A DNA stretch of 64,000 nt from Branchinecta lynchi (taxonomy: Eukaryota > Arthropoda > Branchiopoda > Anostraca > Branchinectidae), in contig JAKZAP010000006.1 of NCBI GenBank assembly GCA_023053575.1, forward strand, positions 20,035,280-20,099,279, in the 5' to 3' direction. Made by a program: the position numbers and the translations under genes. The notes below the pieces were generated by a model. It did not search any database. It was not told the origin of the DNA and was given only the letters and a program-made list of their open reading frames with translations. How positions within the stretch are numbered: the stretch's first letter is position 1; each line of letters begins with the position of its first letter. Positions 12,012 to 30,200 of the stretch are shown here, in pieces.

Positions 12012-12100
12012 TAAGTATATCATCCACACCTCATCCAATCTAGCTAAACAAAAATTCAATATTTCTTCTAACTGATTTTTTTCTTTTTGCTAGATTTAAA

Positions 12101-12244
12101 ATGGTTGACATAGAAGAGACTGTTCCAAGATTCGTCCTACCTGATGTAAATGATACACCAAATGGATGGGGACCCAATGCCATCCCCGAGCAATACAGAG
12201 ACATGCCATACCAGCCTTTTGCCAAAGGAGACAGGCTTGGAAAG
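12101..12244 (+). CDS. EIF3D: eIF3d coding exon 1
   Basis: 48 codons from ATG to a phase-0 donor AAG/GTAACT. The segment [20 protein letters not shown] identifies the eIF3d N-terminus. An acceptor seven bases before the ATG implies an upstream non-coding exon. Confidence 0.95.
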
Positions 12245-15200
12245 GTAACTGAACTTCATGACTGATTTGAGTTTTTACATTGTTTAGTTCTTCAAGTTCT
12301 CTTACTGCCATGTGATTTTGTTTGTAAAAAAAAGTTCTTTTCTCTAGATATTTAGAGATTCCTGGAGAGATTACCATCCTGACATTCGTGCCATTATAAG
12401 AATAATAGTTTTATAGATTTTTCTTTTAAGGTGGCAGATTGGACTGGCAATTCATACCAAGATAGAAGAAACCAAAGTAAGTAGCTTTTACAATTTAGAT
12501 TATATTCAATATCCTCAGTATGTGCTAGGAAATAAAATCAAAGAGGGCAACTAAAGCCTCTAGTGAAGTTCTCAGTTTCTGAAAAAGGAACAAGGAATAA
12601 ATCAAAGGGAATTTAAAAGTTGTTCGCGCGTCACACGATGACCCTCGAAGGAATCGGAATATTGTGTTGAAACATGGTGTGAGGCAGGTGTGAGATTCTT
12701 TGGGTCGAAGTATAGGTCGAGTTGTAAATTGGCTCTGTAGTCCTGTATTTAGGGGTGGGGAGGGGTTTTCAGATGAGGCCTAAGTTTAAAAAAAAAATAA
12801 GTTTTCAAAAGCTAATGAAATAGTCAATTTAGAGGTAGGCCTAGCGAGAGATGCAGAAGCTGTATGTGAAATTATTTACTTGCCCGGAACTGGTCCAAAC
12901 TGGTAATTTGGTGAAAGTAGGCTAAATATTTGTTTCTAAAGTTTATTGACATAGAGGTAAGGAGACGTGCCGAATATGTTTTGGTACTTCATATTTAGAC
13001 CGGACACATAGTTCGCTCGCGGTCCGTTTAAAGCCGGAGATTTGATAAAAGTAAAAGTTCTATTTGAAGTTGATTAAAGGTTCACTGTAGGGTAAACATG
13101 CCGAATGCTTATCCGAAGCTTATTTTATGATCAAAGAAGTAGCCTAGCAAAACGGAAATTTTTTAGAAGGGAAGAATTTTTCTGAAGTCGACTGATGCTT
13201 TGAAATGGGGCTTAACATTCATGTCGAATAAATCTGTTCCTAGTTTTCTCAGCGGATTAGTGGTTGGGTCGTAATCCGCCAAAACACCGCTATCATGCTT
13301 TTACATTTCGAAGTGGTTGATTAAGGATAAATATCATGTTTAGCTTACTGGGTCTGGCGAAGACCGGAGTTGTCTTGATAAAGCAATCCAGTCAGTATTT
13401 CACTTCCTATCAAATGTTTTGCCTTGTCGTTTTCACACTAGCGGCCTTCTGCTCAAGTGCTATTTAGCGCTCGTAATGTATGTCTGACCTCTGTACCCGT
13501 ATAAAGGATCCGACCCACTGCTCAAGAAAACCTCCCTATCTCGGGTCCGGTCATTGTTGGAAGGGTGGGAGGGAATCCGGGGTCTTGTGAATCGCGTAAG
13601 TGATGAAGGTGTGGATGGTAGGAACAGATGCTCGAGTTTAGGGACCAAATTGGTGGAGGGAATATTATGCAAACTGGAAGATACGAAGGTCTTGGGACCT
13701 AGATGTGCAATTTGTAGGTCTTGATCGGATACGACCTGTTTAGGGTGGGCGTGGGGGGGATAAAGGAGGTTACCGGGAATCTTTGAGGTGCTCTAATTTG
13801 AGAAGAAATGCCCTAGGCATGACATTAATTTCTGTGTCAGAAAAAAAACGAGGACGGATTTCTTCTTCCTTATGACAGGAGCTGATTCGATCGAAACTTA
13901 AGGTGCGTTCTTTTGGTTGTAGTTTCACTGTATTTTGACATCCTTTTGTTTCAGTTATGAAAGTACAGTGTACCGTTTATGTGTCTATTCCATATACTGT
14001 AATTTTATAACTAATACAGTGTCAAACTACACCGAAACTACATAAAAAAAACGCACCTTTAATGGATGATAGGAATAGGTGCCCTAGATGGGCCTTCGTG
14101 GATGTGAGGACCACATATTGGCCCCAATTAGGATATGTTGAGTGCTGTCCCGGAAATTGGGTCGTCTCGTCTCCAGAAATTCCCAATGTTTTATGTCACT
14201 TGTCCGTAAGAGTGCCAAATGAGCTCACAGCAGCACACGCTATCGAAAGCTTGTAGTGACATTTTTCTTTCTTTAATGCACTATCTTCATGTGAGAGTAA
14301 GGAAAACACCTTGTTAATAACTAGTTAATTTCTTACTTTTAGATAAATATGCCTCTCAGTTTGGAGCTGGCTCTAGTCAATACGCATACTACCATGAAGA
14401 TGATGAGACAAGCTTCCAACTGGTCGACACAACTCGAGTTCAGAAACCAATTTACGCCAGGGGCAGATACATGAGAAACCAGAGAGGTGGCATGAGAGGT
14501 CGGGGCGGAAATATGCAGAGAGGCACTGGCCAAATGCAAGTCTTGTCAAATCGTGGAAAGTAAGTATCGCCATACTGACTTTTGAGCCTATTTTCATCGA
14601 GAAAATAAATTAAAGAACTTCAAGTATGAGGGCAATCAAGCGTATGTCCGGCTACAACCACCTGGTTTCCTAAGCCATTCTTCCGTAAGGTGGCATAATT
14701 CCCTCACGGCTTAGGAGATATCCGTGAATATCTTTTTGGCCAGATTGACTTCGCCGTCAGTTTTCCTCTCGTTGAAATCCGTCGTTTGTTTCCATTTTGT
14801 ACTACGAGAGGGGGGGGGGGGGGCTCACTTCTCCTTACTTTTGATGTATGTTTGGTTGTATGTATTGGAGTGCGGATGCGTAGAGCTTCCGGTGTTGAGG
14901 ATGGGAAATTTTTGAATCACGCTTCCGATCAAGAGTTAATGTTTTCTTTTTATTGTATCGGAAGAAATCTCAGACTTTGATTAAAGCACCAGCCTGTTGT
15001 TTATACAATAGTGGTTTAGCAAGAAGTGTCAATGTAATATTTTTTTTTTTTTTTTTAATGTTCGCTAGTAGTATATAATCGCCGCTCCCACTCCACCCTC
15101 CCCCCAATTTCAAAACCCCATTTTAACATCAACTTCTTAAATTTTAACATCCTTTTTACCAAATTATCCCCCTTTTTAAGAACATTTTTATTTTCTTACT

Positions 15201-18200
15201 TCCAAAATAAAGGATACAAGAAATGAGAATATTACCCTTTACTACATATAAAATACTACAATATACTACTACTTCTTTTTTTTTTACATTTTTCATTTTT
15301 TACTGAGTAAACAGTTCTAAATCCACATATGTTTCTTTGTTCTTGTTTTCGCGTACAATCGGTTGCAAAACCAGATTTTTCTTTAAAAGTAATTCGTTAG
15401 CAATGGCATTATATTTCTGTGTTATAAACAAATCACAGGGTTTGTCATTATGATTAATAACTACAACCAACTTATCACCATATTTTGTCTTAGCAATTCT
15501 CATTTTAACAATAGTATATTTCAAACCTAACACTAGTTCTTCTTTCCTGATTGTCTCATTGTATTTATTCATTCTGATTGTATTCAAGACTTCCTTTGCG
15601 GACTCCATTTATTAGGGGATGATTTTATTAAATAAAAATCCAGACTCACAAACTCACATACATATTTTTGTTAATAATACCTAATGTAGCTTTTCTTTCA
15701 TAATATATAACACAGTAAATATTATATGGTACAGGCTGAGCGTGTTTTAATGTTAAACTTATTTCAATATCAGCAGTTGTTCCATTATATATACTTGATT
15801 CGTGTTTGGAAACATCGAAACAGAATAGTGGATATACTTCTTTAAATTCTTCTATACTAACAACACTACCAGTATCAAATGCTAATTGCTTATAGCCCAA
15901 ATGTATGAACCTATTGTAAAGATTTGAGTATTTACATTTCTCATCGCTAAAGTCGCATTTGAGTGGTTCTTCAGGATATTTATCCCCATTAATTCTAAGT
16001 TCTATGTCTGTTAAATTCATATGATCAAACACCATATTATTCATTAATTGATTGTTATGCTTTTCATTTTTCTGTAACATCACAACGATTTTTGTAGGAC
16101 TATTTCTCTCAGACACAACTTTCCAGGTGTGCTCCTTATTCTGACTAACATCACTTTTATAACTATTACATGCTTCCCACATCAGATTATGCTTTTTATC
16201 CTTAGCAAGATCCTTTTCTAATTCACTCATCATTTCGATACTAGGAGCTACAATAGGGATCTTCCAGGATAAATACTCGATTACTACTTTGAAATTAGTA
16301 TTTCCATTTCTTATAATCATGTTGTTATCATCATTTCTTCTTAGAAATAATTTATGCGATGCACCTCTGAAGAATCGTTTGTTTCCTTTCAGAAATCCAA
16401 ACAATTCTGATAATGGTAAATACATATTTACTAATTTACTGCTCTTTGTTCTGTTATATCTTTTTTCAAATCCTTTATTATAATTATTATTATTTCTCAA
16501 ACTGACTGTTCCACCCCCTGCTGCAGCCCCTGCTACTACTGGAGTTGCAGTAAACGAAGCAATAACAGGATTAATTTCTTTTCCTTGATTATAATCCTTA
16601 TACCAGAAATGATTTCTTGCTGCACTTCTAGAATAATCATCAGAGTATTCAATCAACTTTGTAACGGTAGTTGTAATACCAACATGATTAATTTTTTCAA
16701 CCGATTCATCGTTTATTACATACTCAGCGGTACTGAATAAATTAAATCCATTATTCGTTAAAGTAGCAACATCGGTTGCAGCTATAGGAGTCCCATCTTC
16801 GTTTACTATTCTTACACTGACATCAAGATAACTTTCACTTGGATAAAACCAAGAATCTAATTTCTTTGTTACGAATTCAAACTCTGATTTATTAGATACA
16901 TTCACATCTGTTTCTCGAATTTCTTTAAATTCATATTTAACCACTGTATCATCCACAAGCGGTTCGTCAAATATGTTCCATTGAGGACTGATAACTTTAT
17001 TTACTGCCATTTATATAAGAAAGAAATTATTAAATAAAACTTATTTCAGAATCTTTAATCCATTTCCAGTCATTAACGTTTTGATCAAGTCCTGACTTCT
17101 TTGATTTAAAATCCTTTTATTTGTACCGATAAGATCCTTCATCGATTTTTTGTTTCCAATTACATCAATGAGTTCCTTCTTGTTTACATTGATCAGATCT
17201 TTCCCATATTCTATTGCTCTGTTTTTCAACAACTCAAATCTCGGTTTAATAATATTATTATACATTGACATAGCCCCATCTTTTATTTGTTTTGCTGACG
17301 TTTGAAATAACTGGGAATTAACAATGTTTTTGAATACACTACCGATTCCACTTCCATACTGCTTTTTATAAAGTAATCGCTTATTATTAATCAACATTTA
17401 TAGGTAAATAATTTTATTTCACTAATCCTTTAAGCTTTTCTTAAATGCAGCACGTATCCAACGTTATCACCATTCAAATCGATAGGTCTTCCCAACTGAT
17501 CAGTAATTGTCACTCTCAAGGAGTAAATAAAGTCTTTTGTATTAATAGGAAGGTAGATTAATTGTCTAGGATTCTCAACAATTTGACAACCCGGTTCTGT
17601 ATTCGGAACAAATGTCCAAATGACATCTGATTTACTTTTGTTTACGATAGAACTGTTTACAAGAGAGCAGTGAATTTGAATTTTATCAACGCTTCTTGTT
17701 ATATTCGGAAGCTTTGTACCTTCATTGATTTTCTTAGATATCTCACTATCCTTCTCAAATCCTAAAATCTGACACAAGTCACTATTAAATCTAAACACAT
17801 ATTTTTCTTGTAATAGTATGACAAATCTCATAGATGCTGGATTGGATGAAATTACAATAGGACATTTATCTTTTGGGGTATCAAAATACTGACACAAAAA
17901 ATAATTCAAACAATCATCGTTATACATCCCATTAGGAATAGTAACATTCATCCATTCTGTTGCATTATTATCTTCATCTTTCCTGTATTTAAATGTATTA
18001 TTTCCAAATTTATCACTTATATTATGCCATGAATACCACAAAGTACACTGATTCAAACCTATTTCATAATCCCAATTACGATTCAATTCGATTGGTTGAC
18101 TAAATGTTATATCAATGATACTTTCATTACCTTCAATGTTTAACAACACCATTTATTAGAAATATTTTTTATATATTGAATTGTAATTTCTCTTCGTAAG

Positions 18201-21200
18201 AAATTTATTTCGCATTAACGAATCCAAAATATCAATAGCTTCATTTCTCACCTCATCAGATGTATTTCCGTTTACTCTGCTACCTATCAAAGTGTATAAT
18301 TTTGAAATCATTTCATCACAATTCATAAATATTCCAGTTCCTTGTTGTCTGATAAAGGGTATACTAGATTGAATTTTTCTTAATCTATCCTTATAGTCTT
18401 GTATAAATAAAATAATTTTATCATACTTACTAGAACTATAACTTTTACTTTTCAGACCACCATAACTTTGACTTATAGGTGTTAATTCAGCCAAAGCATC
18501 TTCTATATTCTCTGGGTTATCATAATAAAAATGAGGCATCTCAAAATATTCCCCTTCATATCTTCTATGATTATCTCTATATTTCACATTAAGTGTTTTT
18601 AATAACTCTTTATCAATACCTTCATTCAGATCAACAACTTTTATACTTGTTGGAGATGCTTCTAAAGCGGTTGACTGCATTTCTACCCCTGAAACTGGAA
18701 GCTGATATGGTTGAATCGTTTCACCTAGCTGGAGAAGCCTTGTTCTTGAACTATCATCACCTTCCTGTAGTTTATTTATGATCATTTCAGTGTTTTCTTG
18801 TAATTTTTTGATGGTATCTTTAGTGTTTTCTTTTTGTGCTATAATAACTGGAGCGTTTAATTCTGAAGCATATTCCCGAAATCCTGCCTTCTCCATCTCA
18901 TTTTGCTGAACCTTTCTTCTCTGAATTTCTCTGTTCTTCACTATATCCGATAAAATATCACTCAAGCGTCTTGAATCCATTTATATACAAGTAATTTTAT
19001 TTCATAATAAATTTTGAAAGTTCTTTTTCATAAAACCCTCCTTGAATTAATTCCCCACTTTTGTCAGATATTTCATAAGTAATGGGAATGGTAGGTCTGA
19101 TGGTTGCTATCTGAAATACTTCATCCGTATAATTAGGTAAATATCCTTTATCGAAAATACTTTTTTCTTTTTTAATTCTGACTAAATTCCCTACTTTGAC
19201 GTTTCCTGTGATTTTGTAGTCATCTACTGGAGGAAACAGAGCACTAAAAACCTTTTTCTGATTAACCTTTTTACTAGCATCAACTGGTTTCATTTGTATT
19301 GATCGGTGATACGAGTTATTATAATTATTTACGAATACAGGTAAAATATCAATCCAATTAGTAGTGTTATTGTGAGTGAAATATTTCCATAACTTTTCTT
19401 TTAGCGTTCTGTTGAATCGTTCTACAATTTGCGCTTTCAATTCGCTTTCAGATGCAAACCAGTGTATGCCGCTATTTTTCAAAAAAGATTGAACATTTCT
19501 CATCACAAATTCTTTACCTTTATCAGTTTGTAGTTTCTTAGGAATTCTTTCTTTAAATATAACACTGAATGCTTTTATTATTTCAGCACCCGTTTTGTCT
19601 TTCAGAGGGATACACCAAGCATATTTACTAAAGCAATCAATAACAGTTAAAATGTAATTTGTTTTATTATTTTCTTTTTTATATTTCTGCATGTCAACTA
19701 AATCAGCTTGCCATTGCTCATCAACATAGTGAACATACACTCGCCTCCTTTCAAAGTTATGATAGGAAGGTTTGTGTAACGTATACACATTCTCATTTTG
19801 CAACACATTTTTTATTGTATCTTTAGACACGTTCACTCCATTTTCTTTTAATTTTCTGTGAATATCATCAACACCTGAATAATTAGAATAATACGTCTTT
19901 AAAATATCTGTTTCTGCGTTGAGGTTTTTTTTAAAAAGCGATTTTTCCTCGATCCGCAAATAACACAATTCCCTTTCAGCATTGGAACATTATTTTTTTG
20001 TGACACTGCCTTAAACATTGATTCAGTGTCAGTGCTCTTTTTACATTTCATACAATAAATCTCCATTTATTAGAAAACAATTTTTATAAACGAAAAGCTA
20101 CCAACTTCATTTTGCGCTTAATGTAGGAAATACAGTGAAGTCCACAGTTTAATTCATCTATATTTTGAACAGCAAGATTTTCATAAGCTATTTTTTTCTT
20201 TGAAGTTCTTAGATATTTAATTATTTCTTTTCCTGGGGGAATACCGAAAGAATCGAAAAATTCTACATAGGGGGATTCAGATAGATTACAATAGGCAACC
20301 CAGTGAGTTCCAGGCATTCCGAGTTTATCATAATTAATGACACCGCATTCCGAATCGTTTATATGTTTGGGTAGCGTATCTAAAGAGAAAACACCTCGAA
20401 ACTGTGGTATACTCCCTAATGCATCCATAATATCAAAATTAGTTAGAGGTCCTACTTTACTTTTGCTTCTTTTTTGATGTCCCCGTTTTTTGACTTCCTA
20501 GGCCTTCCACGTACCCCATTACCCACAACTTTTTGTGTTCCAGGGAGTGTAAGCGCGCCACCTGTGTTGACATCATCTTTTTTTTCCTTCCTAGGCCTTC
20601 CACGTACCCCATTACCGGTAACTTTTTGTGTTCCAGGAAGTTTTAGCGCACCACCTGTGTTGGTCATTTTATCCATAATTTTCTTACCAGCGAATGTACC
20701 CAAAGCAGCAGCACCACTTGTTAAAGCTGCCTTACCAAGGGTAATTGCTAGCGGTATTAAAAATGGAAGTAATCCACCTTTTTGAATCGCTTCTCTCATC
20801 TGCTTGTATGATACATCAATATCACAACCCTTATTATTCATTTTACATGTTTCAATTTTATCAATTTGTCGTTTACTTAAAAGTAACTTGACTGGTTCTC
20901 GTTCATTTTGTCTACTATGACTAACACGTATCTGACATTTTTGTTTAGCATCAAAACATTTCTTCAGCTTTCCTTTCTGAAGCTTTGACAAATAAACTGT
21001 ATACTCCGTTGTTTCAACCATTTATTAGGGAATTAATTTATCTTATAAAATTTATTTACCAGCCATCATTTTTTCTATTCTGGTAACGAATGGTTTGTCA
21101 ACAGGTTTTAGCTCTAGCTCTAGAAGCCTTTTTAAAATATTTACTACTGCTCTTTCAATATTATCGATACGAGTTTTTTGACCAGCAATCTTTCCTTCAA

Positions 21201-24200
21201 TTATACCGTTATGGGTGTGTTGCCCCAGAAGCTTTTTGTCATAATCTAAAAGATTCATAGTTAACGTTGCTAAATTAACAGCATCATTTTTGTTTCTAGG
21301 GTTTTGAACATTTGTTATCAACTTGTTTTCAGCGTTAATCTCTTTATCATTAACTCGAACTATTTCTTTTACAAATAACCCTTTATCTTTGTTCCTTACC
21401 AACGAATTATCAGGAGAATCATCTATCGCAGTTAATCTGTTGATATCTTCGCTAAAGTATTGGTTGGCTTGCACTTGTCCTGCAGTCATTTGTTCTTTAA
21501 ATTGATTCATAATCACAGTCATAGATCTTAAGCTAATAGCATCCTTGTCTGCCTTGGCATCACCTAAATTTATAATTCGTCTATCATGTAGGTTAATGTT
21601 ACCATTTTCGTCAGTAACTTTCGATTCGTTACTAACCTTTTTTCCAACACTACCAAATTTATTCATTTATTATAGAAATAAATTATCCGGTAAATTTTTC
21701 AAAGTTTTTCCTGTACTTAAGGGTTTTATCTTTTATTTTTAAATCTATGAAGAAAAAACCGTAGCCCTTGGTTGCAGTCTCGAATTGTTTGAGAAATTTT
21801 TCATCGTCTATACTGGATACATGGCTTTGTCTTATTAATTTTACTTCTTTTGGATTAGAACACTGAAAGAATGCAAAATAATTGCATTGGAGCCTTACCA
21901 CCTTTGGCGTTTTATGATAGCTTTGAGACAAGTAAATAATTGAGGCATTTTTCTTTCTTCCTCTTATGAATAAATCTTCTATTTTCTTCTGGTCTTTTTC
22001 AGTGACAAAATCGTCAAAGATAATCAAGTTTTGGTACTCAGGGTCTAAGTCGTCAACATCGACAATATCATCAAGATTGTTACTTACTGTTAAGACTTTC
22101 GATTTGCATTGTGACTCCAAAGTGGTTAAATTGGTTATAAGGTCTTGATACTTATCTTCTTCAAGATCTTTTGCATACAAGTATATTCGGTTGAAACAAA
22201 GATATTCATAAATTAAATTCAAAAGAAGGTTAGTTTTCCCTGTTCCAGAACTACCACAAATTAAGAGTCTAAATGGCCACTGAGGTGCAAGGTCGTGCTT
22301 ATTCTGATAAGTGTTCTTTTCACTAAAGTCATAGACTTTGATTGGAGCCTTTTCATTCATTTATTTAGGAAGAATTTTTCATTATAAGATTTACTTGAGT
22401 ATTTTAAGTATATACCTGAAGTTTTGAAGTAGGTACTTGAAGTTTTGAAGTAGGTACTTGAATTTTTGAAGTAGGTACTTGAATTTTGTAAGTAGGTACT
22501 TGAAGTTTTTAAGTAGGTACTTGATTTTTTTAAGTAGGTACTTGAAGTTTTGAAGTAGGTACTTGAATTTTTTAAGTAGGTACTTGAAGTTTTGAAGTAG
22601 GTACTTGAATTTAATGTTTATAACCTAAAGGTAAAGTGTGTATTTTATCGCTTGTTACTATCCTTTTATCATCCTTAGGATCTAACGCTTTTTTATTCTG
22701 TTCTTCTAGAAACATATTGTGCTTGTATGATCTTAAGTTATACTGGGTTATAGAAAGGTTTTCCGTTTTACCAAACAGTACATCCTTATAGTTTTGAATG
22801 GTAATTTTATCTTTAACGATATTGGTTTTTATTCCTTTCAGTTTTTTGCTAGCTTTTGAAGGGTCTTGGTTGTCCTTTAAATAAGCATATACTTTTGATC
22901 GTAATCCAACAAATTCTGTCATAACTTGCCCACCTAATTCATCTTTCATCATTCCTATCACTTTCTTATTTACATTAGGAAACCCATATGGATTATCTTT
23001 CGCATAATCAGATGTATCGAACCTCTCATTCAAATCCTGTTTGATATCTTGATAAAAATCTTCAGTTCTAATATCATATATGAAAGAATCAGTGTCCATA
23101 TAACACAAATCAATTTTATCTCCATATTTAGGCTTCATATAATCATAATGGAATTCATACATCAATAACTTAGATAGTTCCAATACAGCAAAGCCGATAT
23201 ACATTGGTTTGTCTAATTTTATCTTTTCCTTTGACATTCTTGCTACTGAAAAGTTTTCACTGAATATTATTTCAGATTTAAAGTTGGGTTTCTTTATTAT
23301 TTTTTCTCTTGTTGTATCATCCGTTATTATTTCCATATCCGCTCGCTTCCTTACGTTTTCCATGGTTTTTCCAAAGCAAGCATTATTCATCAGTTTAAAG
23401 AAGTCCTTTTCAAAGTCATTTGTACCCTTAGTTCTAAGTGCTGTGTTGTGGTCTATATATCCTTTTAAGTAAGCACTTTCAGTGAATCCTAGTATTCTGT
23501 GTACTCTCTTCAATATCATACCTTTTTGTAAATAAAATTCTAGATTCCTGTGGTGAACTACATAGTTTGTTTTATCTAATACTGTAGTACATAGCTTACC
23601 GTTAAAGTGTTCGGGTGCTAATGGTAAATCCTTGTGTAATTCGTGTAGTTCTTTTGGATATTCTAAATCTACCTCATATATAGCACCCACATCTTGTCTC
23701 ACCGACTTAATCGTAATCACCGACTTGATATGACTTTTCAGATGGTTGTAATACTCGATTGATTCATATTCATTCCTTTCTTTCAAATCATCCGGTATGG
23801 AAATGAATTGGAAATCATTCGCTGGTAAATTCTGCGACATCGCCCACCCATATAAATTATTAGCGTCCAAATACATTAAATAATTAGATGGTTTATTCTC
23901 ATTATAATCACTTGTATATTTATTATTTGCTTTTGCGTATCTTTTTATACATTGGGATACACCACCTCTTATTCCTTTTTCTATAAAGGTATACATGTCT
24001 TCCTTTGAGAATAACGGTAAGTCTACTTTCGAATGTTTTAGGAAAGCATCCCATGTTAGTCCTGGAGCTGAGAAGTAATGAAGTGGATCCAGATCATAAT
24101 TATGTATACACACATTTCTGAAATTCTCCACAACGTCTGATAGAATTAACACATCACTTTTTAGGTACAACTTGGTATAATCAAGTAAAGTTTCACAGTT

Positions 24201-27200
24201 AAATTGCTTCCATATAGATACCGCTCTTTTATAATCACTTTTGTCAATACCTTTCCCCGTCAACCTAGAATAAAAGCTTTCTATTGGTGGTAACTTTGTA
24301 CATTTCATTTTATCGAAACTATCTACGAATTCATAGGGATACACCCCTTTTTTAATTATTTCTTTGAATTCATCTTCATTTTTGAAGCTGTTAGATGTGT
24401 ACTTGAAATTCTGTCTTAGATGATTACAAGGTACTTTGCAATCACATGTTGCTAAATTTGCTGATAGTTTGTCTAAAGATGAAGCCATAAATCTAATTGA
24501 ATCTATAAACCGCATCTCATATTTTATTTCCGTATCCGCTTTTGTAATACTTATTGATTTCGAGAATGATATGAAACTTTCTGCACTTTCAAAAATTCCG
24601 TTATTAGGTATCAATTCTCTAACAAATAAATGAGAATCATATTTTGATAAATTATGCATTACTACCGGGATATGCCTAGGAATCCTGTATTTCATATTGC
24701 ATTCAGCATGAGCAAATCCCCTATCTTCTCCTGTCATGTGGTCGTGATCAAAGTGAGGATTTTCAGTAATTTCAGTTGTACAGATGTGACAAGTCTTATT
24801 CATTAGATTTTTCCATTTTTCGGTAATTTCTGCATTGGTATAAGTGTGGTTTCTTTGTCTGCTTTCATATTTGTTTGCAATTTCTGTGGATACTTTTGTA
24901 ACGGTTTTAACAAAATGTTCTGCAGCGTCTTCACCGAAATAGTCATAGTATTTGTTCTGGTTTGTATCAAAGGAACAGCATACCTGAAACCCGTAAGCAA
25001 ATGGTTTCTGTTTGGCCACTTTTATTGTTTTCTTCCCGTTTACCTGATTGTATTCTTCGTTATAAGACTCAAAGTCTGCTATTATGCAATAAGGTACTTT
25101 CATTTGTTTTGCAATATTTTTATATTGTATACTTGAACCTTCAGGAGGCATTATAATATCAGGATCTTCGCAATTATTTTTACTCTCATGTTTTTCATAT
25201 TGTTCTTCTTTTGTAAAATGCCTTCCGCAAAAAGTGCAGAGGTATGTCTTTTTTTGTCTTGTAGATATTTGAGGACCAACTAATCTGCTCAGATCCTTTA
25301 CCAGTACATAGTGATTATCGAAATATAATAAATTAATAACATGTTTAGCTGTTTTGCCATTGATTGTACTTTTTAGTATATGACTTCTGATAATTTTCTC
25401 TTTTTCAATTTGAAATAAACAAATTTTAATGTTGTATCTATTTTCAAATTTGTGTATATCTTTAGTATCCATTGGGAAGTTGGTAACCCCTTCGAAATCA
25501 AATTCGTTCTCATATTGCTTATATTTCGAAATTCTTTCCGGATGATCCTTAGCTGGATGTAGATTTGCTAAGATAGACCAAAGGAAACATTTCTGGTCGT
25601 TATTTTCAATATTCAAGCAAGCTCTTTTATTTTTTACGAAATTTGGCAGTATTTTAAACGTTCCTCCCATGTAAGATTCTATTCGTGTCATCCTATAATC
25701 AATTCCTTCATACCGACTAAATTGTAGCCCAGATCGAGGGGTATTACTTAAAGAACTCAGTCTCTTGTTATTATCATCCAAATGACTATGAGTTAGTATG
25801 CTATTTTTATTTAAAATCCAAGAAGTACTGTTGTAATATACTACTACTTCTTCATCATTCTCCTGTCGATGGAAAATAACCCGAGTTACAAACTGAACTC
25901 TATATTGATTTATTTCGTTCATTCGCCGCTGTATATCTGCGAAAGTAAAAGCAATAAGAGTATGCTCGTCAACTCCATTACCTTGAACTGAAACGTTTAC
26001 AGTGAATATATTCTCACTTTCGCTAAAAATAGTAGGCTGCTGTTCTTCTTCCGTTCTAAATACATGATCAGGAATTAATTTTTCTTCTTTAATTTTTTTC
26101 TTATTTATGAAGAGAGTTGATAAATCGACTACTTTCTGTCTACTGTTATCACGTCTTTCTGTTTGATCTCTTATGATATCTCTATTTTTCTGTACGGAAT
26201 CTTTATGTTTGGTAATAATATTATTATAGTATTCTTCAACCTTTTGTATGACTTCTTCTCGGTTTCCGCGAGTTGATAGGTTCTTGTTTTTCAGAAATTT
26301 CTTTAATTCGCTTGTCTCTTTTTCTTTGTTATCATCGTATTCTTGTTTTAGTTTTGTAATGGTGATATTATTTTCTCTTATCTCATCTTCCAGAATGGTT
26401 CGTAATCTCGGTTCTGGTTTGTAGTTGGATGGTCTGTTCTTATTATGAGTTCTTTCGTTTCTGCGTTCAATTTTAATTTTATCTTCAGCTATCAAAATAT
26501 ACTTATTAAGATGGTTTATTATATTATTTGTTATTTCATGTTTCTTAGCTCCATTTGTTTTGATTTTATTAATTTTCGCATAAGTCCGCAGTTCATTATA
26601 TGTGTATAGCGATAATCTTTGTATAACCGATTTGTTGTTCGATATAACCTTTTTACAAAGCTGAATAACCTCTGCAGTATTCATCATTTAATAGGGGAAC
26701 ATTTTTATTAATAAATTTCTCCCGACTGCGTTTTCTTAGTCGTAAAGAAAAGCACTGGTTTCAGTATGCGTTTCACAGAGCAAGCGCTGTCTATATTCTC
26801 TCCAATCAGTCAAGAAAGTTTCAGTAGAGTTCCGTAGATAGCATATGTGTTTTGTGTTTCACGGAGCAAGCGCTGTCTATATTCTCTCCAATCAGTCAAG
26901 AAAGTTTCAGTAGAGTTCCGTAGATAGCATATGTGTTTTGTGTTTCACGGAGCAAGCGCTATCTAGATTCTCTCCGATCAGTCAAGAAAGTTTCAGTAGA
27001 GTTCCGTAGATAGCAGATGTGTTTTGTGTTTCAAGGAGCAAGCGCTATCTAGGTTCTCTCCGATCAGTCAAGAAAGATTCCATACAGTTTAGCAGGTGGC
27101 GGATGTGTTCCGAATCGCGAACCTTTCATTCAATCAAATAATTTCTGAAACAATTTTATTACATAATAAATGGAAGAATTAGAAAAGAAAATGTATGTTT

Positions 27201-30200
27201 ACCGTCGCAGTTACAAGTACTACAATCGTATAAGTAACAGCTTACTTGTATCCAAATTCCTCTTTTCGGCAGCAGGAATGTCTGCGTTTCTAGTGCTACC
27301 TTTAGCTTCTTTAAGTTTGGGTGCTGTTATCATCGAAATAATTGAAAAGCAGTTAAGCATTGCTGATAGAAAAGCAGAATTTAGGACAAATTACAATTTT
27401 TATACTGAGTTGTTCTCAATGCTAAAATGCGGACAATTAACAATTGAGGAGGTAATTCAGAGAGAAACAGAGATGCGTAAAACCTTTCGATTTTTTCCTC
27501 GCGAAAAATACATGAAACAGGTTCGCTTGAACGGTTATAAATATTGTAAGAACGAAACTATCAAAATACAAGAAAATTTACCAAAAATATAAATTTTTTG
27601 CAAAACCTCCCACCCCAGACTTTGAAGATTGAAGATGTTTATTTGTCGTCTTATTATTTTTTATGGTGTGTCTGGGGTGCCCCGTGAGGGGAGGAAACCC
27701 TCTGAGTTTTTTGTTCGCCATCCTCACCATTAACCTCAAGTTGATGGCGGGATTCGATCTCACGACATCATTGATGAAGTGGTTGATCTAAGACGTTGCA
27801 ACATCTTAGACCACTACACCAACGGGGCCTGCAGAATCTCCGCAACGAAATGTTTTGTGATGTGAATACTAATGCGCAATGAGATTTTCTGTTTTTTGTT
27901 GCCCTAAGAGCTTTATCAGTACTAGAGGCAGAATTGTGGGTACGTCGAGGAGATTTTAATTTGATGATGTGATGAATATCGATTTGGATTTTTTTTTTTT
28001 TACATTAGATATTATCAATAAAAATATGTATGTGAGTTTGTGAGTCTGGATTTTTATTTAATAAAATCATCCCCTAATAAATGGAGTCCGCAAAGGAAGT
28101 CTTGAATACAATCAGAATGAATAAATACAATGAGACAATCAGGAAAGAAGAACTAGTGTTAGGTTTGAAATATACTATTGTTAAAATGAGAATTGCTAAG
28201 ACAAAATATGGTGATAAGTTGGTTGTAGTTATTAATCATAATGACAAACCCTGTGATTTGTTTATAACACAGAAATATAATGCCATTGCTAACGAATTAC
28301 TTTTAAAGAAAAATCTGGTTTTGCAACCGATTGTACGCGAAAACAAGAACAAAGAAACATATGTGGATTTAGAACTGTTTACTCAGTAAAAAATGAAAAA
28401 TGTAAAAAAAAAAGAAGTAGTAGTATATTGTAGTATTTTATATGTAGTAAAGGGTAATATTCTCATTTCTTGTATCCTTTATTTTGGAAGTAAGAAAATA
28501 AAAATGTTCTTAAAAAGGGGGATAATTTGGTAAAAAGGATGTTAAAATTTAAGAAGTTGATGTTAAAATGGGGTTTTGAAATTGGGGGGAGGGTGGAGTG
28601 GGAGCGGCGATTATATACTACTTTCGCTCCAGATTATCGAGAATAGAGCCCTATTAAATTTCCTGAAAAGTCTTGGGACGAAACGTATTATGTTCTTCTT
28701 ACTATCGCACCAGCTCGCTCAACTTCTTCTGTCTCTGCAGGTGTTCATTTTCGAAACAAATTTGTATCGCCATCTACTCGCATCATATTTTTCAAATATG
28801 GACCTGATACCTTTACCATGACTATCTCATAATGTTAAAGAGATCGAAGACCAAACCCAAAATTTAAGTGTGAAAGATCTAAATTCTCCCTACGTTATAC
28901 AGTGCGATCTGCATGGGAAAAATTTAAGAATACTGTATCGAAATTGTTGGAAGGGAACGCAAAGCTTTTTGGTGTTGACGAAACTTTAGCCGATTATCTA
29001 TGGCTCGTGACGTTACACGAAAAGTCTATATTTTCCATTTACTAACGGAATTGATTGTCCGTAGAACGGTTTATAAGTGTAAACGCGTCTGGCGCCTCGC
29101 TGACCGCTCTGCTCTGTATATATAGATACAAATATATATTCTGCAACATTAATTTAATCGGATTTCCCCTATTTCTTTCATGACATCACGAAAACGTCAC
29201 GGGCGGAAGATAATAAGCTAAGGTTTTGTTTCCACCAGCTTTTCACGTTCCAACTTACAGGATCGCTAATAGTTAATTTCAGAAAATAATACCAAGATCC
29301 CACCGAGCCAAGCACTGCTGTTCAGGCAAGCTTTGCCGATCTCGCAAATCGTGGTTACAGCGTCAGTTACTGCCGACCTTGTGATGACGTCATTAATGAG
29401 AATATTCTGAGTTTATCATAATTTCCAGGAAACAGCGAAGCACTCAGCCGAAATGGCAGCGACAGCAGTCCGGCCGCGGACGATTCGATAATAGGGGCCA
29501 GCAGCAGACGAAAAATCGTGAATCATCCGTGACAGTTCAGCCCTCCTGGATCGTTATCGAGGAGATGGATTTCCCACGTCTTGGCAAACTTAGCTTGCCC
29601 AGTATTAAGGAAGGGGAAGACCTTTACAAGTGTGGCGAGTTGGAGTACTATGACAAGGCTTACGATAGAGTTAATGTGAAAACAGAAAAGAAGCTGCTCA
29701 GAATTGACAGAGAGCTGCACAGGGTTACTACTACTGATGACCCTATTATTAGAAAGGTAAGATCCCGTAGCAAGGCCGCATTACTCTGTCTTTTTCTCTC
29801 TGCCTCGACGATTCCCTTACTCCCGTCTCATCCGAAACAAGTTTGGAGACCACCATAGATCCTGGTTTGTTGAAAATCTAAAAGCCGACCTCACTTAAAC
29901 TGAATGACGCGTCTTGAAAAGTTTCAGTGATTGAATAGATACGAAGCCCGCGTGTTCGGATTTACCAGAACTTACAGAGGGCCATTGAAGAATTTAATAC
30001 TGATGAAAAAAAAGAAGAAAAAAAAGGCCAAGTGAGACGTTTCTTGCTCCGATTGAGGACAGGATTATGCTCTCCGATCGCAGTTGCTTGGCTTAAGGTT
30101 CAAGGTTCATCTCCTTGCTTTCACGCAAGGAGATGTTCAACGGCCTTGTGAATTTCTGCTGGGTTTGTGTGCTAATAGGCGGCGATGATTAGCCAAAGTT

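Follow-up and report, generated by a model that had tools for sequence, protein, structure and literature searches.

Integrase and protease of a Branchinecta lynchi Polinton lie −1 to upstream genes and are probably expressed by recoding

A 64,000-nucleotide (nt) stretch of the Branchinecta lynchi genome (assembly GCA_023053575.1, contig JAKZAP010000006.1, positions 20,035,280 to 20,099,279 of the forward strand; hereinafter designated the window, whose numbering is used throughout) contains a complete Polinton/Maverick-type element with its main genes on the minus strand (Table 1). A sequence-only reading of the window had proposed that two enzymes of this element, an rve integrase and an adenain-like cysteine protease, are produced by −1 ribosomal frameshifting out of small upstream genes. 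The underlying arrangement is confirmed: the integrase frame lies at −1 to a zinc-ribbon open reading frame (ORF) and the protease frame at −1 to the ORF of a putative core protein, both upstream genes begin with TAAATG, and each overlap contains a slippery heptamer that is in phase and past the last −1 stop.

The 55-residue zinc ribbon matches DUF5679 over the entire profile (PF18930, E=6.4e-11, profile positions 1-40 of 40, residues 4-44). The heptamer T_TTA_AAA, read as X_XXY_YYZ from the last base of codon 44, begins where the DUF5679 match ends and sits inside the 91-nt overlap with the integrase frame; a second in-phase heptamer, A_AAA_AAA at 19932-19926, overlaps it, and the site falls within a T5A8 run. 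In the integrase, whose catalytic D and E columns are invariant across 13 aligned proteins, the first ATG (19692) lies past the first catalytic Asp (QAD, residues 94-96), as had been claimed, but its position in the stop-to-stop ORF is codon 100, not residue 93.

The second overlap, between the core and protease frames, is 46 nt long and contains A_AAA_AAC with its run of six A. The 189-residue upstream protein has no family match above the Pfam cut-off, and the label 'core' is our assumption from its position and a presumed likeness. The core gene also holds a tandemly duplicated 93-nt unit (20469-20654, 83% identical), with the slippery site in the copy nearer the 3′ end. By sequence the protease reaches Peptidase_C5 at E=0.097 only; its AlphaFold model has a mean predicted local distance difference test score (pLDDT) of 83, and the six best Foldseek matches in the PDB are all adenovirus proteases (4piq_A, E=1.8e-6). 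The claim that the frame holds a single ATG, located past a conserved leader, requires amendment: there are three, at residues 24, 61 and 130, of which only that at residue 24 (20428), indeed past the leader, could yield a near-complete enzyme.

Every other annotated gene of the element has a recognizable start. TAAATG occurs 11 times on the minus strand, where 10 copies are the starts of all 10 ORFs annotated there, and seven times on the plus strand, where two copies are the starts of both annotated ORFs; the integrase and protease frames lack it, and the other 12 annotated ORFs all have it. Several of these 12 open as CTAATAAATGG. These starts resemble the late-promoter/start motif of poxviruses, and TAAATG may act as a compact promoter plus start signal.

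The integrase arrangement finds parallels among related proteins. A protein search with the integrase gave 6139 matches, and the counts below refer to the 120 matches listed. P0001 (87% identical) is called from a Met within the homologous region; P0002 (70%) begins MWLQEKSFFKK and P0072 (51%) begins MWLKKESFFKK. Enumeration of codons shows that the ribbon end C-G-x-x-K-x-R-F-L is encodable at both of these N-termini in the frame to which the integrase is −1 and not in the other shifted frame. The same scan over 131 proteins (44,078 positions) finds it possible at four places in that frame and at none in the other, the remaining two of the four being internal, in P0074 and P0115, and taken as background. 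From this we deduce that P0002 and P0072 are likely to share the −1 ribbon/integrase arrangement. A quick tree unites the window integrase with P0001 and P0002 under full support and puts P0072 in another part. Either the offset has therefore arisen two or more times, or it is ancient and has been lost repeatedly.

Other relatives carry the two domains in one frame. PF18930 and rve occur together in a single-frame protein in seven of the 120 matches (P0038, P0079, P0081, P0090, P0100, P0107 and P0117), with 12-73 residues between the last Phe of the ribbon and the YY of the integrase, against 14 in the window. P0079 reads CAICGSKKCTFIKKKKIDLEQVYY in one frame, joining the ribbon to the integrase start at the point where P0072 has the deduced −1 version, and both belong to a group of four with a Shimodaira-Hasegawa-like approximate likelihood ratio test (SH-aLRT) value of 99, in a quick tree with SH-aLRT support only and with P0079 on a long branch. 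Precomputed annotation also places PF08398 in the same protein as the integrase in P0034, P0040, P0055, P0061, P0079, P0096-P0098, P0106 and P0113, and P0014 is an integrase fused to an adenain-like domain, with which P0052, P0064, P0076, P0077 and P0083 align. To judge from these sequences, exchange of partner domains seems to be especially frequent at the N-terminus of the integrase.

For the protease, the evidence centers on the leader. Residues 16-22 (GPLTNFD), which end immediately before I23 and the internal Met24, can be aligned gap-free to the N-termini of seven homologues, and of 200,000 uniform random 7-mers between 0 and 58 do as well, depending on the homologue; the alignment comprises 13 homologues, of which these seven extend into the leader and six begin after it. 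Four of the seven share the N-terminus MK[PL]L[TS]N, and at leader residue 18 the proteases of two distant loci, L008 and L009, possess an ATG of their own. The leader appears to have been kept in the window while its initiator is gone. A predicted helix spans residues 20-27 (pLDDT is 93 in the block 21-30 and only 64 in the block 11-20), and a start at Met24 would cut it.

The protein search with the protease gave nine matches and that with the core two, P0130 and P0131. The 87% protease relative P0121 is called as a separate 112-residue protein beginning at a Met within the homologous region, and the 88% core relative P0130, of 185 residues, ends SKNGETKKEAKVK, the same kind of tail, and is not fused to a protease. 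No joined core-protease protein was found in the core search, where about 310 residues would fit the length limits. The tail of the more distant core P0131 (70% by alignment) is different, PKNV, and could hold A_AAA_AAY; P0131 is known as protein only and was not counted.

In-phase heptamers occur 15 times in the 3126 codons of the annotated ORFs (the same 15 in 3228 codons when the ORF of the terminal inverted repeats (TIRs) is included), and solely at the two sites is a heptamer followed by a long −1 frame (135 and 312/311 residues; next longest, 26). A stimulatory RNA structure, expected 5-9 nt past such a heptamer and suggested as a check by the sequence-only reading, has one nominal candidate at the zinc-ribbon site, a perfect 7-bp stem (UCAACGC/GUGUUGA, 41-nt loop) lying 6 nt past TTTAAAA, and none is evident at the core site. 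The stem is equalled in 6 of 1000 shuffles and, among 3634 element positions, in 1.9% (spacers 3-10) or 1.0% (spacers 5-8); the scan used crude energies with no loop penalty and was viewed post hoc, and we give it little weight.

A number of results weigh against frameshifting at these sites. When the amino acids of each overlap were recoded with the codon usage of the element (20,000 recodings per overlap), 72% of recodings of the zinc-ribbon overlap and 33% of those of the core overlap contained an in-phase heptamer, and in 40% and 8.5%, respectively, a heptamer was followed by a −1 frame open to the end of the overlap; because recoding regenerates them so often, chance could account for the heptamers taken by themselves. 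Over six stretches downstream of the two heptamers, minimum free energy (MFE) folding gives z-scores between −0.19 and 1.01, nothing out of the ordinary, and the best stem past AAAAAAC is unremarkable (272 of 1000 shuffles; 26% and 15% of element positions). The offset in P0002 and P0072 rests on back-translation from protein. P0122 is called from at most seven residues before FRGVF, and six of the nine protease matches (P0124-P0129) are called from a Met directly before DTLPK, so that they have no leader; unless the calls place these starts wrongly, the enzyme can do without one. Judged by the Kozak rule, the internal ATG of the protease frame (20428; A at −3, G at +4) would be usable if a transcript began nearby.

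Distant loci weigh on the same side. Scans of viral contigs with the integrase, the integrase alignment, the capsid protein, the 1358-residue ORF and the protease alignment returned one distant locus (L001, 29%), a scan of phage records returned no loci, and a scan of genome contigs returned 32, of which the 15 best (L002-L016) were examined and 17 weak ones (E 7e-9 or worse) dropped. The integrases of L002-L016 are 29-47% identical to that of the window. No zinc ribbon was seen at −1 upstream of the integrase in any of these 15 loci, two ribbon queries found no matches in L001-L016, and in 14 of the 15 a Met of the integrase frame itself precedes the conserved part. L012 has a long one-frame N-terminal extension, and in L007 the N-terminal part of the integrase frame is disrupted. 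Most integrase frames of L002-L016 thus have a Met of their own and the proteases of L008 and L009 an ATG, which speaks in part for the refuting case named in the sequence-only reading, and the −1 arrangement is at most a feature of a lineage: the offset is deduced in P0002 and P0072 and does not extend to these loci. L002-L016 are Polinton-like contigs in bacterial metagenome-assembled genomes of the GTDB set, where their presence is probably contamination from binning.

On the sequences in hand, the case is carried not by the heptamers but by the −1 offset of the frames, the lack of starts and the comparison with relatives. −1 recoding of some kind is very likely for the integrase, well supported by P0002 and P0072 and by the seven one-frame relatives, and likely for the protease, reasonably supported by the leader and by the separate 87-88% relatives. 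Ribosomal slippage at both sites is the account that we favour, as moderately probable; one ribosomal mechanism covers both, and both heptamers fit X_XXY_YYZ in phase. Some ribosomes would slip by −1 at U_UUA_AAA or A_AAA_AAC shortly ahead of the 0-frame stop, so that most would produce the zinc ribbon or the core protein alone and a minority a zinc ribbon-integrase or core-protease fusion. The integrase would then extend the DUF5679 zinc ribbon at its C-terminus, and the protease would do likewise for a basic core protein; fusion to the core would deliver the protease together with the core protein, and the zinc ribbon would add a nucleic-acid or protein contact to the integrase. That the slip is ribosomal, how often it would occur, that the fusions would be made and packaged and that they would serve as tethers is what we infer.

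The same zinc ribbon-integrase fusion would arise if RNA polymerase added one A in T5A8, so that part of the mRNA joined the frames. The eight A after five T at the zinc-ribbon site would suit such transcriptional slippage, and the transposase of IS1447, of the IS3 family, is made in this way at A9, in place of −1 ribosomal frameshifting, according to the available text of PMC6211511; the core-protease site, however, offers A6 only and would call for a second mechanism, and we consider this explanation unlikely. Independent initiation would dispense with fusions, the protease starting from ATG 20428 (on a new transcript, or by reinitiation about 24 nt past the core stop) and the integrase from a non-AUG codon. 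ATG 20428 has a fair context, the called starts of P0121 and P0122 lie at comparable points and those of P0124-P0129 at a later Met, but the lack of TAAATG at either place, when the other 12 annotated ORFs have it, the conserved leader upstream of 20428 in a helix that such a start would cut, the absence of any integrase ATG ahead of the catalytic Asp and the one-frame zinc ribbon-integrase proteins of relatives all argue against it, and we judge it quite improbable.

Two further explanations have far less to recommend them. Splicing could join the frames in nuclear transcripts, and a few donor-like (GTAAGA at 20687, GTACGT at 20607 and 20514) and acceptor-like sites do exist in 21021-19650; yet the frames already overlap free of stops and do so at a domain end, and a consensus scan of the zinc-ribbon ORF gives no donor-like match, which makes splicing very improbable. 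Most improbable of all is that the offsets are assembly indels at A/T runs or marks of a decayed copy. Both sites are homopolymer runs and the distant relative L007 does have a broken integrase N-terminus, but the TIRs are 100% identical, the other annotated ORFs are open, P0002 and P0072, from separate data, fit the same offset, and gene calling gives distinct core and protease proteins in the 87-88% relatives.

The favoured frameshift reading has counterparts in other systems. In retroviral Gag-Pro-Pol, protease and integrase are placed behind structural proteins by X_XXY_YYZ heptamers, which controls their ratio. The Polinton in the window differs in having two separate genes with two proposed slips and an adenain-type cysteine protease, and in being a DNA element, among whose annotated ORFs there is no reverse transcriptase. 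Bacterial IS3-family elements have a transposase whose catalytic part adopts the rve-type fold and whose upstream ORF encodes a DNA-binding helix-turn-helix protein. Like the element they are DNA transposons, and according to the available text of PMC6211511 the transposase of members other than IS1447 is a −1 ribosomal fusion of OrfA and OrfB; unlike it, they are without capsid or protease. The one-frame DUF5679-integrase relatives have the same two domains in the same order as the element, in a single frame that needs no frameshift.

Adintoviruses offer a further comparison. In the available text of PMC11071296, KnotInFrame gives hints of −1 frameshifting close to the ends of adintovirus Penton genes, and Hexon-Adenain is said to show a 'similar relationship', so that −1 frameshifts, one of them involving the protease, had already been suspected in the same virus group; unlike in the element described here, a capsid gene supplies the 0 frame there, and the stated basis is KnotInFrame prediction. 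The remark that no described Polinton case was known needs qualifying to that extent; neither a zinc ribbon-integrase nor a core-protease pair appears in the available text of that paper. Our literature search found no paper combining a Polinton with a programmed ribosomal frameshift, and a described case among the papers that mention both Polintons and frameshifts is possible. Recoding in adintoviruses has thus been proposed before, and the zinc ribbon-integrase/core-protease arrangement with comparative support from sequence looks new.

We give an even chance to the broader picture of an animal Polinton lineage with a split Gag-Pro-Pol logic, in which two −1 frameshifts would set the ratios of core to core-tethered protease and of free to integrase-tethered ribbon, independently of retroviruses and IS3. 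If it holds, Polintons, thought to lie at the root of several groups of eukaryotic DNA viruses, would dose by recoding the two enzymes that retroviruses likewise put behind a frameshift. Gene calling would then give wrong starts (P0001, P0121) or read such genes as broken, and recognizing the arrangement would alter which copies count as intact.

Table 1. Features of the Polinton/Maverick-type element in the window
Feature	Coordinates	Strand	Remarks
Complete Polinton/Maverick-type element	15067..28622	main genes −	inside eIF3d intron; TIRs, target-site duplication; rve integrase, A32-type ATPase, double jelly roll capsid domains
Zinc-ribbon ORF, DUF5679 PF18930, 55 aa	19899..20066	−	0-frame gene before integrase; starts TAATAAATGG; ATG 20066, stop ends 19899
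Slippery heptamer T_TTA_AAA (TTTAAAA)	19929..19935	−	in phase
Candidate stimulatory stem, 7 bp	19868..19922	−	weak evidence
rve integrase open frame	18997..19989	−	−1 to zinc ribbon; PF00665 E=1.7e-14
Core protein ORF, 189 aa	20452..21021	−	0-frame gene before protease; basic C-terminus; starts TAATAAATGG; ATG 21021, stop ends 20452
Slippery heptamer A_AAA_AAC (AAAAAAC)	20485..20491	−	in phase; A6 run
Adenain-like cysteine protease open frame	20084..20497	−	−1 to core; leader PLTNFDI precedes internal ATG 20428
Major capsid protein, double jelly roll PF21738	15646..17010	−	own TAAATG; DJR-like E=2.8e-27
118-aa ORF	17041..17397	−	own TAAATG
240-aa ORF, putative, position of minor capsid (penton) gene	17430..18152	−	no Pfam family; own TAAATG
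274-aa ORF	18156..18980	−	no family; own TAAATG
204-aa ORF	21052..21666	−	Phage_T7_tail similarity slightly below Pfam cut-off; own TAAATG
Packaging ATPase Pox_A32	21683..22360	−	E=2.1e-13; own TAAATG
1358-aa ORF, putative PolB	22611..26687	−	SAP and endonuclease VII domains; own TAAATG
102-aa ORF, two identical copies	15300-15608 and 28081-28389		one per TIR; own TAAATG
140-aa ORF	27170-27592	+	hydrophobic stretch; no Pfam match; own TAAATG

The TIRs of the element are 622 nt long (15067-15688 and 28001-28622), it begins with AGTAGTATATAATC, and both flanks carry the 6-bp target-site duplication (TSD) TTCGCT; the identical TIRs and the open frames suggest a young copy. Open frames encoding eIF-3_zeta exons lie at 12044-12265, 14321-14563 and 29400-29858, and because they stand on both sides of the element, the insertion is placed within an eIF3d intron of the host (14563-29400). 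The main genes of the element run opposite to eIF3d.

The element has the rve integrase, adenain-type protease, A32-type ATPase and double jelly roll (DJR) capsid protein that are among the features defining Polintons, and shares these, together with TIRs and a 6-bp TSD, with Polinton/Maverick elements and adintoviruses (Eupolintoviridae). In contrast to them, it provides no separate start for integrase or protease, whose frames lie at −1 to the zinc ribbon and core. The window integrase gives no Chromo match in Pfam at E<=0.1, unlike many of the listed relatives (the domain is present in the integrases P0014, P0038, P0072 and P0081), and a C-terminal chromodomain in the integrase is a mark of adintoviruses in the available text of PMC11071296, as is a hexon recovered reciprocally by BLASTP. 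Likewise, no Pfam family at E<=0.1 indicates the N-terminal OTU-like domain that this text associates with adintovirus PolB, although a diverged domain could escape. For want of a chromodomain match, we file the element as a Polinton and not as an adintovirus in the sense of PMC11071296.

A protein-primed family B DNA polymerase is a further defining feature of Polintons. The 1358-residue ORF has no DNA_pol_B match in Pfam at E<=0.1 and is taken as a putative PolB from its size, its place and its similarity to a stretch of the Polinton-like locus L012 (35% identical over 1109 aligned columns). An Rfam scan of the element gave no matches. The 140-residue ORF is the sole annotated plus-strand ORF outside the TIRs. 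Two repeat arrays flank the putative PolB gene: a 21-nt tandem repeat with 10 in-register copies listed lies between the ATPase and the 1358-residue ORF (22350-22643), and an 86-nt repeat lies upstream of the latter (26767-27109).

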